From NCBI RefSeq assembly GCF_001542875.1, contig NZ_LMAF01000002.1, forward strand, positions 186,001-250,000: 64,000 bases of DNA, written 5' to 3'. Positions 28,018-33,378 of this stretch are shown one piece after another (position 1 is the stretch's first letter; each line of letters begins with the position of its first letter). The notes beneath the pieces are model-generated. The model searched no databases. It saw nothing but the letters and a program-made list of their open reading frames with translations, and was not told the origin of the DNA. Both the position numbers and the translations under genes were made by a program. The stretch comes from Erythrobacter sp. YT30. Lineage in GTDB: Bacteria > Pseudomonadota > Alphaproteobacteria > Sphingomonadales > Sphingomonadaceae.

Positions 28018-28323
28018 CTATCGGCAAACGTCGTGAAACGGATTTTGCTCACATTCGCTCGACATTTCTTCGGCGTGCTCTCGCGCCGCTTTGTAATCGG
28101 CAACCGCTTCTGCTTGCATGGTGGCCTTGTAAGCAGCGCTCTCCCCAAACAACAGTTGAGGCAGCACATGCATGGCGACCGCTCCTGTAGAGATCAGAGC
28201 GATCGTCCACAGTAGATAGGAGCGCATCGCTTTCTTGCCGCTCTTGCTAGCTCGGACAAATCGCGACACATCTTCGTAGAGGTCGCGCGCACCCAAAATG
28301 GTCTCAAGCAAAGATAGCGCCAT
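28018..28323 (-). CDS. Small single-pass membrane protein downstream of pspF, unknown
   Basis: 101 residues from the ATG at 28323, with aagagag just upstream; a start at 28368 is possible. An amphipathic N-terminus (LLETILGARDLYEDVSRFVR) is followed by one membrane helix at about 38-57 (SYLLWTIALISTGAVAMHVL). An Ala/Glu-rich helix and an end with two cysteines (SSECEQNPFHDVCR) complete it. It may be co-transcribed with pspF, which lies 64 bp upstream on the same strand. No family is recognised. Confidence 0.55.
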   Translation of the reverse strand: MALSLLETILGARDLYEDVSRFVRASKSGKKAMRSYLLWTIALISTGAVAMHVLPQLLFGESAAYKATMQAEAVADYKAAREHAEEMSSECEQNPFHDVCR

Positions 28324-28386
28324 CTCTCTTCCCCATCGAACCCATTCAAATCGCTCGAAAATTCGCACCGAACGGCAGGGAAGTGA

Positions 28387-29433
28387 TTAATCGCTTTCCT
28401 CCATCAGCCCATGCTTCTTGATCGCGTGGCGCAGTTGGTCATAGCTCAGGCCCAAGGCTTTGGCAGTCTGGCGCTGATTCCAGCGATGTTTGCCGAGAGC
28501 ATGCTCAACAATCGCGCGTTCGTGAGTTTCGACTGCGGCTCGCAGATCATCAACCTGCTCAAAATCGATCGCTGGTGATGGTGCCACCTGCTCCCCGGCA
28601 GTGCTCGGAGCATGGCTCGACCCATTTTCTGACCGGCGATGCGGAGGCGCCTTGGGCTTCCACGGGCTTTCGAACGGGTCAAACTGGATGTGCGAGATCG
28701 GCGTTTCAGGATCGTCCCAACGATAGACCGCGCGTTCAACCACATTGCGCAACTCGCGCACATTGCCGGGCCAAGCATATTCCTCAAGCTGGGTCGAAAC
28801 GTGCGGCGCGAAACCCGGCCAGGCATGCCAATCAAGCTCCGCGCCCATTCGCCGCCCGAAGTATTCTGCGAGAACAGCAACGTCCCCCTCGCGTACGCGC
28901 AACGGTGGAAGAGTGATCACTTCAAAGCTCAGCCGGTCGAGCAAATCGGCGCGGAACTCTCCGCTTTTGGCCAAAGCGGGAAGATCGTCATTGGTCGCCG
29001 CCACAATCCTAACATCGACGCGCACGGGCCTCGATGATCCGATCCGCGTTACCTCGCCATATTCAACCGCGCGCAGCAGGCGTTCTTGCGCACCCATCGA
29101 CAAAGTGCCCAGTTCATCGAGAAAAAGAGTGCCTTGATCGGCTTCTTCAAACCTTCCCGCCCGCGCTTTGGTAGCACCCGTGAACGCGCCCGCCTCGTGG
29201 CCGAACAATTCGGCTTCGATAAGGGTTTCGGGAAGCGCTGCGCAGTTCATTGTGACCAGCGGCTCTCCCCAACGCGTGGAAAGACGGTGCAGACGTTCGG
29301 CAATCAATTCCTTGCCCGTGCCGCGTTCGCCGATGACAAGCACGGGGCGGCTCATCGGGGCAGCACGACTGGCGCGCTCCACCGCATCAAGGAAGGCCCC
29401 TGATTGGCCGATAAATTGGTTTTCGCGCTCCAT
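28387..29433 (-). CDS. pspF: PspF, sigma-54-dependent activator of the phage shock operon
   Basis: 348 residues. There is no receiver domain. The AAA+ domain starts at the N-terminus, with Walker A GERGTGKE near residue 36, the sigma-54-contacting GAFTGA loop near residue 81, and 'GTLFLDELGTL' as Walker B. A linker and a Fis-type helix-turn-helix (WNQRQTAKALGLSYDQLRHAI in two parts) end the protein. PspF drives psp transcription and is held inactive by PspA. It is divergent from the psp operon across a 196-bp region holding the sigma-54 promoter. Confidence 0.95.
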   Translation of the reverse strand: MERENQFIGQSGAFLDAVERASRAAPMSRPVLVIGERGTGKELIAERLHRLSTRWGEPLVTMNCAALPETLIEAELFGHEAGAFTGATKARAGRFEEADQGTLFLDELGTLSMGAQERLLRAVEYGEVTRIGSSRPVRVDVRIVAATNDDLPALAKSGEFRADLLDRLSFEVITLPPLRVREGDVAVLAEYFGRRMGAELDWHAWPGFAPHVSTQLEEYAWPGNVRELRNVVERAVYRWDDPETPISHIQFDPFESPWKPKAPPHRRSENGSSHAPSTAGEQVAPSPAIDFEQVDDLRAAVETHERAIVEHALGKHRWNQRQTAKALGLSYDQLRHAIKKHGLMEESD

Positions 29434-29556
29434 TTCCCGCCCTGTATCGCTATTTGCACCAACCTATAGTGAAAATTCCCAATGCTTGGCAATAGAAACC
29501 AATATGATACATTGAGTAAAACGTAAAATTGGCGGATTTCTGAGGTTTCTGCAGTT

Positions 29557-29572
29557 TGGCACGCGCATTGCA
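29557..29572 (+). promoter_or_regulatory. Sigma-54 promoter of the psp operon
   Basis: TGGCAC-N5-TTGCA is an exact -24/-12 element (GG to GC spacing of 10 nt). It is divergent from pspF and about 60 bp before the first gene of the operon. The 29434-29556 stretch is AT-rich and probably holds PspF-binding and pspF promoter sites that I cannot define. Confidence 0.92.
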
Positions 29573-29629: not shown

Positions 29630-29842
29630 ATGCAAACGCAGAGCACACCAAAAGCCGGCAAGACGACCAAAGGTTTCTGGTCAACCAAGCTTGGCCACGC
29701 CTCAATCGCGAGCATTGCCGCGATGAGCGCGATGGTGATCCTGTCTTCGCAGGTTCAAGCTGATCCGATGTCGGGTGCTGCTGGAAGCGCGGGCCTGTTT
29801 CAGCTTCAAGCTGATACGCCGGCACTCATTGAGGCAGCATAA
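29630..29842 (+). CDS. Small exported peptide, first gene of the psp operon
   Basis: 70 residues. A basic N-terminal 20 residues (TPKAGKTTKGFWSTKLG) precede a hydrophobic stretch 23-40 (HASIASIAAMSAMVILSS) and a likely signal-peptidase site QVQA at 44. A 26-residue Ala/Gly-rich tail remains. gagaagg precedes the ATG. It is the first gene after the sigma-54 promoter and lies just ahead of pspA. No family is recognised. An envelope-located role in sensing or tuning the stress response is an inference from position. Confidence 0.6.
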   Translation: MQTQSTPKAGKTTKGFWSTKLGHASIASIAAMSAMVILSSQVQADPMSGAAGSAGLFQLQADTPALIEAA

Positions 29843-29851
29843 GCGACACAC

Positions 29852-30130
29852 GTGATGACCAAGCCATCCAATCCTTCCAACCCCCTCGGGCCGGAGCGCG
29901 ATGCAGCCAGTGACCCCGCACAGGCTGCACAAAGCGACACCGCTCCGGCCCAACCCGCCTCGGACAGGCAATTGACACCAACAAAGCGTCTTTCGCGGCT
30001 TGATGAAGAGATTGAAGCCTTGCGCACCAGCCCCACTCCGACGCAAGCTCGCAGTCAATATTCGCGCGAGTCTCAACGCGAGGAGCCACGAGCAGAGCGC
30101 ACTAACCCGTTTCTAGATGGAGTAGCCTTT
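29852..30130 (+). other. In-frame 93-codon open stretch fused to pspA (possible N-terminal extension)
   Basis: Starting at GTG-ATG (29852/29855), the frame runs without a stop straight into pspA. The encoded segment is disordered, Pro/Ala/Gln/Ser-rich, and contains RLDEEIEALR, the same word that recurs in the PspB-like proteins downstream. There is no Shine-Dalgarno at 29852, whereas GGAG at 30119-30122 serves the internal ATG at 30131. Both products may be made. Confidence 0.5.
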
Positions 30131-30817
30131 ATGGGCATTTTCAGCCGCACACGCGATATTATCGCCGCCAATTTCAACGACATGCTGGATAAAGCAGATG
30201 ATCCCTCCAAGATGATCCGCATGATCATCCTCGAGATGGAGGAAACGCTCGTTGAAGTTCGCGCTAGTGCGGCGCGCACGATTGCAGATCAGAAAGAGAT
30301 GCACCGACATGTGGTGAAGCTCGACAAGCTGGAGGCAGACTGGGCCGACAAAGCGCAGCTTGCTCTGTCAAAGGATCGTGAAGATCTTGCCCGCGCCGCT
30401 TTGGTTGAGAAGAAAAAAGCAAGCGGCATGGGTGACCAGCTGCGCGCGGAAATCGCCGTGCTGGATGATGCCCTTCGCGCTTATGAGGAAGACATTCAAA
30501 AGCTGCAGCATCGCCTGCGCGAAGCACGCAGCCGCCAGACCCAAATCGCAGCGCGCCTGGAAAGCGCGGAAAACCGCGTCAAACTGCGCACGCTGATGAG
30601 CACGGAACGCACCGATGATGCGCTCGCCAAATTCGACCAGCTCGAACGCCGCGTCGATTACGCCGAGGGACGCGCTGATGCCATTTCGATTGGCAATGAA
30701 GGCCAGCCTTCACTGTCTGATGAGATCGCGGCGCTCGAAGGAGCAGACGCAATCGATGATGAACTTGCCGCGATGAAAAAAGCGCTTGGCAAAGACGATA
30801 CAAAGAAAGGGGAGTAA
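30131..30817 (+). CDS. pspA: Phage shock protein A (PspA/IM30/Vipp1 family)
   Basis: 228 residues from the ATG at 30131, matching the usual PspA length and start (MGIFSRTRDIIAANFNDML). The N-terminal amphipathic helix 'FSRTRDIIAANFNDMLDKA' is followed by 'PSKMIRMIILEMEETLVEVR' and a long coiled coil. PspA binds stressed inner membrane as an ESCRT-III-like scaffold and inhibits PspF. Translation from 29852 would place 93 extra residues before the membrane helix. pspB follows after 3 nt. Confidence 0.95.
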   Translation: MGIFSRTRDIIAANFNDMLDKADDPSKMIRMIILEMEETLVEVRASAARTIADQKEMHRHVVKLDKLEADWADKAQLALSKDREDLARAALVEKKKASGMGDQLRAEIAVLDDALRAYEEDIQKLQHRLREARSRQTQIAARLESAENRVKLRTLMSTERTDDALAKFDQLERRVDYAEGRADAISIGNEGQPSLSDEIAALEGADAIDDELAAMKKALGKDDTKKGE

Positions 30818-30820
30818 ATC

Positions 30821-31126
30821 ATGCCATTTGAAGTCGTCCTTTTAATCTTCATGATCGTGATTGGGCTGCCCTGGATGGTCATGCACTATGTGACCAAGTG
30901 GAAGACCGGCGCGTCGATCACCACCGATGACGAAGTGCTGCTGGAAGAGCTCTACAACCTCGCCAAACGCCTTGATGAGCGGATGGACACTGTTGAGCGA
31001 CTGGTGGCAGCCGATGATCCATCATTCACTCCTGTAAAACGGCTTCAGGCCGATCAGGAAGCCGACAACCAGCAGCTTCGTGAGCTCGAACAGCTTATGG
31101 CCGAAAAGAAAGGAACCAAAGCGTGA
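30821..31126 (+). CDS. pspB: Phage shock protein B
   Basis: 101 residues. An N-terminal membrane helix (FEVVLLIFMIVIGLPWMVMH) is followed by a cytoplasmic leucine-zipper-like segment 'LYNLAKRLDERMDTVERLVA', the PspB signature. A longer than usual C-terminal helix (QLRELEQLMAEKKGTKA) ends it. With PspC it passes the envelope-stress signal to PspA. The stop overlaps the pspC GTG (GTGA). Confidence 0.93.
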   Translation: MPFEVVLLIFMIVIGLPWMVMHYVTKWKTGASITTDDEVLLEELYNLAKRLDERMDTVERLVAADDPSFTPVKRLQADQEADNQQLRELEQLMAEKKGTKA

Positions 31127-31500
31127 ATACCCCCCGCACCACACTTTATCGCGATCAGCACAACGCCAAAATCCTTGGCGTGTGTGCCGGGATTGCCGAA
31201 TACACCGGCGTGAAGCGGTTTTGGGTCCGCGCGGCAGCGGTATTCCTGACATTCGCCACGCAAGGTTTCGCTCTACTGGCTTATGTCATCGCTGGTTTCG
31301 TGCTGAAGAAAAAACCCCCGCACCTCTACAAAGATGTTGCCGAGCAGAAATATTGGCAGGGTATTCGCCAAAGCCCGAAGCGCACCGCTCGCGAAATTCG
31401 CGCCCGCTTCCGCGATATCGACCGCCGCCTGGTCGATGTGGAAACGCACTATGTCAGCAACAACACCCGCCTAACCGCCGAGATTGAGCGGCTGCGGTAA
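31123..31500 (+). CDS. pspC: Phage shock protein C
   Basis: 125 residues, GTG start. The PspC domain 'AKILGVCAGIAEYTGVKRFW' is followed by a membrane region (VRAAAVFLTFATQGFALLAYVIAGFVL in two parts). The C-terminal cytoplasmic tail 'DIDRRLVDVETHYVSNNTRL' with TAEIERLR resembles the coiled-coil signature of the PspB-like proteins that follow. PspC is the membrane sensor/partner of PspB. Confidence 0.94.
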   Translation: MNTPRTTLYRDQHNAKILGVCAGIAEYTGVKRFWVRAAAVFLTFATQGFALLAYVIAGFVLKKKPPHLYKDVAEQKYWQGIRQSPKRTAREIRARFRDIDRRLVDVETHYVSNNTRLTAEIERLR

Positions 31501-31527: not shown

Positions 31528-31842
31528 ATGGAACCAGGACAGTTAGCGCTGTTGATCCCGATCATAGGCGTCATGATCCCGATCGTCGCCATCTGGGCAA
31601 AACATCAGCAGAAAATGGCCGAAATCAAAGTTGATGCCACTGCAGATGCCACGGCCGAAAAAGCCGCGCAATATGCAACGCAGATCGCCAAGCTTGAAGA
31701 CCGCGTTCAGGTGCTGGAACGCATCGTCACAGACCGCGGATACGACGTAGCAACTCAGATCGAAGCGCTGCGCGATACAGTCGAAGTAGAACAACGGGAT
31801 GCTGGTGTCCCGCTCAATATCGGTTCGAAGGAGCAAGCATAA
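31528..31842 (+). CDS. PspB-like tandem paralog 1
   Basis: 104 residues. An N-terminal membrane helix (LALLIPIIGVMIPIVAIWAK) is followed by an Ala/Thr/Asp-rich stretch. The coiled-coil signature KLEDRVQVLERIVTDRGYDV with QIEALRD aligns with PspB's 'DERMDTVERLV'. It lies 27 nt after pspC with aagggg upstream of the ATG; the stop shares a base with the next start (TAATG). The inferred role is an additional PspB-type transducer. Confidence 0.8.
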   Translation: MEPGQLALLIPIIGVMIPIVAIWAKHQQKMAEIKVDATADATAEKAAQYATQIAKLEDRVQVLERIVTDRGYDVATQIEALRDTVEVEQRDAGVPLNIGSKEQA

Positions 31843-32189
31843 TGGACGGCGACATGAAGATCTTCGTTCTGCTGATTATCGCGATTTCGACAGTCGGCTG
31901 GCTCATCAACAATTGGATACGCGCCCGTCACGGCTACGCTCTCGAAGATGAGTGGGGCGGCCATACGGAAATGAACTATGACGGTGAAAACAAGCGCCTG
32001 AAAGCGGAAAACCGTGAGCTGAATGACAAGCTTGATGCGATGCAGGATCGCATGGTTGTGCTCGAAAAGATCGTCACGGATCGCGGCTATACTCTGTCCG
32101 AAGAGATCGAAGCCCTGCGCGATGTGCCAGCCAAGTCTACCGATAGCGGTGTACCGCTCAATATCGACAAGAAGGAACCGCAAGGATGA
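31842..32189 (+). CDS. PspB-like tandem paralog 2
   Basis: 115 residues. An N-terminal membrane helix (IFVLLIIAISTVGWLINNW) is followed by a 45-residue charged linker. The signature 'MQDRMVVLEKIVTDRGYTLS' with EEIEALRD closes it, and it then ends with 'SGVPLNIDKKE', close to paralog 1's 'AGVPLNIGSKE'. The shared tail shows that 1 and 2 are a recent duplication pair. It is translationally coupled to paralog 1. Confidence 0.8.
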   Translation: MDGDMKIFVLLIIAISTVGWLINNWIRARHGYALEDEWGGHTEMNYDGENKRLKAENRELNDKLDAMQDRMVVLEKIVTDRGYTLSEEIEALRDVPAKSTDSGVPLNIDKKEPQG

Positions 32190-32232
32190 GGTTTCGCTCG
32201 CTTGTAAACCTCAAGGACGAAGGAAACGCGTG

Positions 32233-32493
32233 ATGTTTGGTGCCGACACACAACTAGTATTCGACGCGATCCAGATGGCGGTGATTGCCGCAGGTCTGGC
32301 CGGCGGAGCGGTATACCTCGGTATGCGTCGGCGCAAATCCAGCCAGAACCGCGAAGCGATTGATCAAGCGTCGAAGTCCACCTTGGAAGAGCGCGTGCGG
32401 GTTCTCGAGCGCATCGCGACCGATCGTTCAGCAGACCTCGCCGATGAAATCGAAGCTTTGCGCGATGACACTAAACAAGGGAGCGTTACCTGA
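32233..32493 (+). CDS. PspB-like tandem paralog 3
   Basis: 86 residues from the ATG at 32233 (GTG at 32230 also possible; aaggaaa lies upstream). The membrane helix 'LVFDAIQMAVIAAGLAGGAV' is followed by a basic patch (MRRRKSSQNRE) and the signature 'LEERVRVLERIATDRSADLA' with DEIEALRDD. The stop overlaps the next start (TGATG). An upstream in-frame extension to 32023 exists, but it overlaps paralog 2 and has no family support. Confidence 0.78.
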   Translation: MFGADTQLVFDAIQMAVIAAGLAGGAVYLGMRRRKSSQNREAIDQASKSTLEERVRVLERIATDRSADLADEIEALRDDTKQGSVT

Positions 32494-32807
32494 TGGGTTG
32501 GGAAGTAGTCGTTGTTGTTGCCATCATCATCTGGGGCGGTGTCCAGGTTGCCAAAGCGCGCGCCGGGATCATCACCGATGAGGACGGCAATGAAACCCTT
32601 GCTCGGCCCGATCCATCGAGCAATCTCGACGCGATCGAGGATGCAAGGCGCGAGATTGAGGCGCTGCGCGAGCGCGTCAAAGTGCTTGAACGCATTGCGA
32701 CTGACAACAACACGCTGAGCGCACGCGAACAGGCACGGATTGCCAGCGAAATCGAAGCTTTGCGGGATAAGGACCCCGGCGCCGTTCCAACGAGGGACAA
32801 TGCCTGA
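32493..32807 (+). CDS. PspB-like tandem paralog 4
   Basis: 104 residues. The membrane helix is short (VVVVVAIIIWGGVQV). A linker with 'DEDGNETLARPDPS' follows, then the coiled coil 'EIEALRERVKVLERIATDNN' and a repeated EIEALRDKD, so the EIEALR word occurs twice. Both ends overlap neighbours by TGATG. It is very similar in the coiled coil to paralogs 3 and 5. Confidence 0.78.
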   Translation: MGWEVVVVVAIIIWGGVQVAKARAGIITDEDGNETLARPDPSSNLDAIEDARREIEALRERVKVLERIATDNNTLSAREQARIASEIEALRDKDPGAVPTRDNA

Positions 32808-33136
32808 TGTACTGGCTGTTCCTGCCTCTTTTGATCTTTGTCGCGCTGTATTTTCGCGAGCGTGGGCGGAGCAATCGCCTGATGGATCGGGTTGCGATCC
32901 TTGAAAACGCTCTCGACCATGGCGCTACCGATGGCGATGTCGATGCCATCACTGCAAAGGAGCTCGAACAATTGCGCGAGCGTGTGCAAGTCCTTGAACG
33001 CATCGCAACATCTGAAAACAGCGCGGAGGCCCGCAAGGCTCAGCGCATAGCTGCCGAAATTGAGAGCCTGCGCGGCGATATCGCGCGGCGCTCCCACCCT
33101 TCTGAAGGCTCATCGAGAGAGGAGTTGAGCGAATGA
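32807..33136 (+). CDS. PspB-like tandem paralog 5
   Basis: 109 residues. The membrane helix is at the extreme N-terminus (YWLFLPLLIFVALYFRERG). A first short coil 'RLMDRVAILENALDHG' is followed by the full signature 'LEQLRERVQVLERIATSENS' and AAEIESLRGD. The double coil suggests internal repetition. The stop overlaps paralog 6 by ATGA. Confidence 0.78.
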   Translation: MYWLFLPLLIFVALYFRERGRSNRLMDRVAILENALDHGATDGDVDAITAKELEQLRERVQVLERIATSENSAEARKAQRIAAEIESLRGDIARRSHPSEGSSREELSE

Positions 33137-33378
33137 TGGACCCGGTTACCACAATTGCCGCTGCCAGCCTGATCGGGCTTGCGCTCCTGTCGGTTTGCCT
33201 GCTGCGCGCATGGCAGGGGTGGCTTGATCTGAAGCGCGAACAAATGAACAAGACGCCGCATTCGTCGGGCCGCGAGATTGAAGGCAATGCTGGCGTTGGT
33301 GCGGCACGGATTGAGCTCGCCGATCTCAAAGAGCGGATCAAAAAGCTCGAAGCCATCGCGAGTGGGGTGGAGCTTTAA
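33133..33378 (+). CDS. PspB-like tandem paralog 6 (most divergent)
   Basis: 81 residues. The membrane helix 'IAAASLIGLALLSVCLLRAW' precedes a basic linker and a short C-terminal coil 'ELADLKERIKKLEAIASG'. This resembles canonical PspB (ERIQALESIL in E. coli) but lacks the EIEALRD word. It is the last gene of the psp operon. No terminator is obvious before sufE, 57 bp downstream. Confidence 0.7.
   Translation: MMDPVTTIAAASLIGLALLSVCLLRAWQGWLDLKREQMNKTPHSSGREIEGNAGVGAARIELADLKERIKKLEAIASGVEL

Follow-up and report, generated by a model that had tools for sequence, protein, structure and literature searches.

In the phage-shock (Psp) system, PspB and PspC are reported to form a complex in the membrane, with the PspC C-terminal domain as the part that binds PspA when the system is on (PMC5596341). 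PspA binding needs the leucine zipper of PspC, and PspB self-associates (PMC3068692). The same source places the PspC C-terminus in the periplasm by default and allows two topologies, so there is no agreement that the tail is cytoplasmic in every species. Polymers of the PspA relative Vipp1 are built through subunit contacts made by helix alpha5 (PMC8281802). Operons with more than one PspB-like gene have been touched upon: section 17 of PMC11237479 gives one clause to PspB duplicates in the pspABC operon, with AOL22920.1 as the example, and a divergent PspB at the PspC end is also mentioned in that paper. Those operons resemble the one described here in carrying extra PspB-like genes within pspABC, but the main-text account gives no array, gene number, order, range or link to the PspC tail; the main-text passages of PMC9239133 do not mention the array. 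The preliminary description of the present locus, which knew of no account of such an array, was therefore nearly right, that one clause being the exception. The psp operon variant with an array of small genes is real, widely conserved and nearly undescribed. As far as sequence can tell, the array consists of membrane-anchored coils that stand between PspB and the PspC tail and are closed by an invariant last gene (76 of 76 complete loci).

The locus lies in a 64-kb window, by which we mean the whole stretch of DNA that was analysed. Judged by the relatives of its PspA, the genome is close to Erythrobacter. A pspF-like activator gene in the ORF list (28387..29433, minus strand), presumably pspF from its sequence, is divergent from the psp operon, and a small membrane-protein-like ORF (28018-28368) lies directly behind it on the same strand. 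On the plus strand, a pattern search located a sigma-54-type promoter site, TGGCAC-N5-TTGCA (TGGCACgcgcaTTGCA), at about 29555..29572, which is 574 nt upstream of the canonical pspA start. Among the best 80 of 281 PspA relatives plus the window, 79 loci have 600 nt or more of upstream sequence; the strict pattern occurs in 63 of them and a looser one in 68. Between this site and pspA the ORF list contains a small leader ORF (29630..29842, plus strand), first in the operon, with one hydrophobic stretch and no family match among the Pfam and NCBIfam profiles; the same pattern occurs in 65 of 79 Erythrobacter-type loci and in 1 of 20 chosen loci from other genera. The remaining usual genes, all on the plus strand, are pspA from its canonical start MGIFSR (30131..30817; TIGR02977, 277.9 bits, cut-off 242.95), pspB (30821..31126; TIGR02976, 90.7 bits, cut-off 51.7) and pspC (31123..31500; TIGR02978, 123.1 bits, cut-off 104), the last with the C-terminal tail RDIDRRLVDVETHYVSNNTRLTAEIERLR. 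An open frame with a conserved motif (RLDEEIEALR...PTPTQ) extends PspA in frame at its N-terminus (29855..30130, plus strand). The genome also holds a second match to the PspC model, outside the window (G000:C2:70072-70233; 41.9 bits, front part only).

Six small plus-strand genes follow pspC between 31528 and 33378, and the ORFs were confirmed at the positions first reported. Assigned by clustering to subfamilies A to J, they are gene 1 (31528..31842, subfamily A), gene 2 (31842..32189, F), gene 3 (32233..32493, G), gene 4 (32493..32807, D), gene 5 (32807..33136, J) and gene 6 (33133..33378, B). Four of the five junctions overlap as had been described, by 1, 1, 1 and 4 nt, while the gap between genes 2 and 3 is 43 nt and not 44. 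The two words that had been noted, VLE(R/K)I.T and (Q/E)IE(A/S)LR, are both present in genes 1-5; gene 6 has KLEAIAS in place of the first and is without the second. A search of the whole genome (3.2 Mb, 4 contigs) with the array profile returned these six genes and, up to E 10, no other. Judged by hydropathy and charge, the proposal of one membrane helix plus a coil for each gene agrees with the relatives: of 433 array proteins, 430 have their basic residues C-terminal to the hydrophobic stretch, which fits a cytoplasmic coil; hydropathy peaks below the 1.6 mark in J and in some proteins of A, C, F and G. AlphaFold2 predicts gene 1 as a single helix (residues 3-91, mean pLDDT 72), a model that cannot separate PspB from the PspC tail.

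At 355 array junctions from the best 80 of 281 relatives plus the window, neighbouring genes overlap by 1 nt in 214 cases and by 4 nt in 89, with 32 otherwise within 30 nt and 20 at 31-100 nt, the share of overlaps leaning upward because, among possible starts, the rule used prefers the one closest to the preceding stop. A Shine-Dalgarno-like word stands at -18 to -5 ahead of 399 of 433 array starts, compared with 300 of 1653 internal in-frame ATG/GTG codons. Of the 433 proteins, 430 contain the core R...[LVM]E.[ILMV] and 413 an EIEALR-like word, where residue-shuffled sequences give means of 13 and 9.5, respectively; the word stands before the core and not after it in subfamily B, which supplies the last gene. 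In 78 loci the array begins 19-77 nt after pspC, a strict sigma-54-type site occurs inside the array in 0 of 78 loci, and no plus-strand terminator-like site was detected between 29400 and 35300 of the window. These short gaps, the overlaps and the lack of such sites fit transcription of pspABC and the array as one message.

Median dN/dS values, from pairs with dS within 0.2-1.5, are 0.27 (A), 0.29 (B), 0.28 (C), 0.39 (D), 0.62 (E), 0.26 (F), 0.33 (G), 0.26 (H), 0.24 (I) and 0.24 (J), where G, H, I and J are based on 15, 8, 13 and 3 pairs, respectively; for comparison, pspA gave 0.09, pspB 0.21 and pspC 0.22. The array genes are thus under purifying selection, with nine of ten subfamilies at 0.24-0.39, and the value for subfamily E indicates relaxed constraint. 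The preliminary description had considered the case of an array absent from relatives and drifting with neutral codon patterns; what we found is a widespread array with constrained codons.

A survey of psp neighbourhoods, which had been proposed along with the array, found it in every complete Erythrobacter-type locus (76 of 76). The sample was the best 80 of 281 PspA relatives, from which three loci (L037, L042, L084) were dropped since the contig ends before the array and two (L034, L064) since a contig end cuts it, leaving 75 plus the window. Titles of the best 80 are mostly Erythrobacter, Porphyrobacter, Altererythrobacter, Qipengyuania or Pontixanthobacter, the remainder being a few unclassified Sphingomonadales or Alphaproteobacteria and one Novosphingobium bin. 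Gene number varies from 3 (1 locus) through 4 (14), 5 (25), 6 (17), 7 (14) and 8 (4) to 9 (1). The order of subfamilies, which are BLAST-score clusters of the 433 proteins and not branches of a phylogenetic tree, is mostly kept as (H)-A-(F)-C-(E)-(G)-D/I/J-B, B closing each of the 76 arrays and A opening it or following an initial H. Exceptions are E and G swapped in two loci (L029, L088) and C before F in one (L078); extra copies comprise a second A in five loci (L032, L035, L041, L078, L091) and a doubled F in L024. The window array reads A-F-G-D-J-B, without the subfamily C that is present in 73 of the 76 loci.

Beyond Erythrobacter-type loci, we chose 20 by hand to span 19 genera and the range of match counts, including one without a match, so that they are not a random sample; 19 of these 20 carry 2-6 array genes directly behind pspC. 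The smallest of these arrays is D-B, the commonest is F-C-A-D-B (6 of 19), in which A stands later than in Erythrobacter, and 17 of 19 end with B. Sixty genomes drawn from the order were searched with the array profile at E 1e-3: 2-7 matches turned up in each of the 14 that belong to the window's family, and one or two in 34 of the 46 others, counts that include some PspB and PspC-tail hits; outside the family the array-type gene is often solitary and away from psp. At E 1e-6 an array match is present in 108 of 119 family genomes; 97 of these have two or more and 89 have three or more, numbers that are lower bounds because the last gene often misses this threshold (three genomes listed with one match contain two array genes when read). 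In the same 119 genomes array and PspB occur together in 105, neither in 7, PspB only in 4 and array only in 3 (Fisher p 6e-7), the array-only class resting on one good case because the array of G368 is at a contig end and G383 is 66% complete; the status of these two may come from assembly gaps. In the rest of the class, array matches at E 1e-6 were found in 0 of 113 genomes, 115 having been searched and two of them belonging to the window's family. The psp operon in Erythrobacter's family thus usually bears 2-9 array genes after the usual genes.

The array proteins resemble PspB in size (~80-115 aa), in their one N-terminal membrane helix with basic residues behind it, in a coil with ER...LERI and in their place in the psp operon; they differ in the additional EIEALR part and in forming several diverged genes where PspB has one. 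The claim that these are six PspB genes did not survive profile search, as none of the six exceeds the PspB cut-offs (TIGR02976, PF06667). The best single score is that of gene 1, with 25.1 bits against TIGR02976 (cut-off 51.7; E 1.6e-5) and 13.8 bits against PF06667 (cut-off 25.6), and gene 6 has no TIGR02976/PspB match at all. Some relatives of gene 1 bear the database name 'phage shock protein B'. None of the six matches the PspC domain PF04024; with TIGR02978 (cut-off 104), gene 1 (18.2 bits) and gene 2 (15.0 bits) match in the tail part only. BLASTP of gene 1 against the PspB and PspC of the window returned nothing, and single-sequence comparison is thus unable to settle the kinship. Weak Pfam hits (WXG100, TolA_bind_tri, Nop25, crescentin) lie below their cut-offs and differ from gene to gene, so we set them aside as coiled-coil noise, and the array profile likewise found only such noise among solved structures (best E 0.017).

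Comparison of profile with profile gave a different picture from single proteins. The array profile matches PspB with HHalign 92.8 over 28 columns and the PspC tail with 91.7 over 38 columns that run to its final residue, in each case with 0 of 100 column shuffles as high, whereas reversed targets gave 0.8 (PspB) and 1.5 (PspC tail) and PspA, as a coiled-coil decoy, 16.8. PspC tails from genomes outside the family still matched at 87.4 (0 of 100 shuffles), while PspB compared directly with the PspC tail scored 0.8. What stands of the first claim is therefore a distant kinship with PspB at the level of the family, and the second word, EIEALR, is no feature of PspB and matches the end of the PspC tail instead. 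The PspC tail, at the end of TIGR02978, shares with the array a two-part coil ending in EI..LR, which in the array is borne on a single helix. The match to the PspC tail is strongest in subfamilies C and F, which lean that way; A, D, H and I are nearer to PspB; E and G match PspB as well as the tail; J is weak (41.8 and 7.0); and B, to which gene 6 belongs, matches neither PspB (0.6) nor the PspC tail by HHalign. At the profile level, the array is a bridge between PspB and the PspC tail. One family genome (G053, locus L137) has no PspB match and an 88-aa PspC without a tail, with two array-type genes directly behind; as a single genome, it supports exchangeability of PspB and the PspC tail with array genes.

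The N-terminal extension of PspA carries a similar word. Upstream of MGIFSR, 80 of 81 loci (best 80 of 281 plus the window) show no stop in the pspA frame for 60 codons or more, and the motif SRLDxEIExLRRSPTPTQ has R, E and R invariant in 80 of 80. The extension is coding, and nucleotide changes in it favour third codon positions. Because the canonical MGIFSR start has a Shine-Dalgarno-like GGAG of its own in front, PspA may exist in two forms. By HHalign the extension matches the end of the array (82.0) and the end of the PspC tail (78.5), each with 0 of 60 shuffles as good, and does not match PspB (0.5). AlphaFold2 predicts it to be disordered in the long PspA except for a helix at residues 48-58 (block means 59 and 72 vs ~40 on either side). 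The extension was found in 0 of the chosen other-genus loci, the PspA start having been located in 18 of 20; as these loci have arrays without it, the array does not depend on the extension.

We propose, with moderate confidence, that the array proteins are alternative membrane-anchored docking modules of the PspB/PspC-tail type for PspC and PspA. This proposal draws on the presence of the array in 76 of 76 and 19 of 20 loci, its co-occurrence with PspB, the dN/dS values, both profile matches and the gene set of G053, together with the published PspB-PspC complex and PspC-PspA binding. Membrane stress would induce the sigma-54 psp operon, and the array proteins would be translated from the same message via coupled starts. 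Mixed membrane complexes with PspB and PspC could form by way of the coil they share, R-x-x-x-LE-R-I-x-T-D ... EIExLR, the predicted cytoplasmic coil of each joining PspB/PspC and competing for or recruiting PspA, while differing membrane helices and juxtamembrane parts might respond to different lipid or protein inputs. Since the docking coil is carried on separate anchors, more or different PspA contacts may result: the tails would add PspA-binding sites, like the PspC tail in enterobacteria, and shift PspA between a PspF-bound silent pool and a membrane-bound active pool. Against docking modules stand the unmet cut-offs and empty BLASTP, the unmatched gene 6, the relaxed subfamily E, the 4 of 119 genomes with PspB and no array match, and the disputed topology of PspC.

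The same observations can be read in other ways. The tails could imitate PspA itself, a copy of alpha4-alpha5 docking like a neighbouring subunit, and the array would then seed, cap or anchor PspA polymers on the membrane as an effector and not in signalling. The PspC tail does match C-terminal PspA from 32 genomes that do not belong to the family (24 from the order, 8 more distant; loci L093-L121, L158-L170) with HHalign 94.4 over 40 columns and a score of 37.5, the best of 100 shuffles reaching 15.9, and the matched stretch corresponds to about residues 168-204 of the window PspA; alpha5 is the polymer contact in Vipp1 (PMC8281802), the array matches the C-terminal PspA of its own clade (56.9; 0 of 60 shuffles as good), and the matches of the PspA extension to array and PspC tail point the same way. 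With PspA of other families, however, the array match fails (3.1; 2 of 100 shuffles as good), and on that account array-PspA similarity is kept here as an alternative and not as the main reading. The PspC tail reaches just 17.1 with the clade's own C-terminal PspA (0 of 60 shuffles as good), the control with the N-terminal half of PspA gave 1.9 and yet scored 15.8, just above 100 shuffles (15.4), and the matched stretch ends before the PspA helix does, the name alpha4-alpha5 being applied by analogy. Likeness to PspA/Vipp1/ESCRT-III alpha4-alpha5 is thus strong outside the family for the PspC tail and confined to the clade for the array, whose proteins, unlike PspA, have a membrane anchor and no PspA_IM30 domain (PF04012; no match in the six). 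The likeness between PspC tail and PspA is possibly general to the Psp system, while imitation of PspA as the role of the array seems unlikely to us.

The variation of gene number from 3 to 9 across the 76 complete loci (best 80 of 281 plus the window) and the relaxed subfamily E would also be expected of largely redundant paralogs kept by dosage or ratchet, the number drifting and no gene having an input of its own. Such drift sits poorly with subfamilies that are distinct and mostly ordered, with A and B holding their places at the two ends in 76 of 76 and with the constraint on the nine other subfamilies, and we regard it as quite improbable. Lower still we would place the idea that these small membrane proteins have no kinship with PspB and PspC and simply sit in the same operon, with a generic coiled coil as the source of the likeness. 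The single-protein scores below cut-off and a gene 6 without similarity to PspB or the PspC tail are in its favour, but column-shuffled and reversed controls fall below the observed PspB and PspC-tail scores, the PspA decoy stays at 16.8 and the core is kept in 430 of 433 proteins.

Returning to docking modules, a broader version might hold that one docking code has been copied through the operon, into PspA alpha4-alpha5, the PspC tail, the 2-9 array proteins and the Erythrobacter-type PspA extension, making the array a set of combinatorial landing sites for the bacterial ESCRT-III polymer. We offer this version tentatively and consider it doubtful; if true, the array would be a prokaryotic counterpart of the ESCRT-III adaptor set. 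In a whole family, the membrane-stress operon seems to work with a set of membrane adaptors encoded downstream of the textbook pspABC, and the profile bridges from PspB through the array to the PspC tail, and from the PspC tail to PspA, suggest an idea for how PspB and PspC might grip PspA and free PspF. The family also offers natural variation, with 2-9 genes and one genome without PspB.

Two minor observations concern psp-type genes outside this arrangement. One genome outside the family (G058, locus L108) encodes another PspB about 0.7 kb from its first; at 36.5 bits this second gene clears the Pfam cut-off and is a true PspB duplicate. In three loci (L140, L141, L149), a lone array-type gene away from psp lies directly behind a gene that from its sequence is presumably rpoD.
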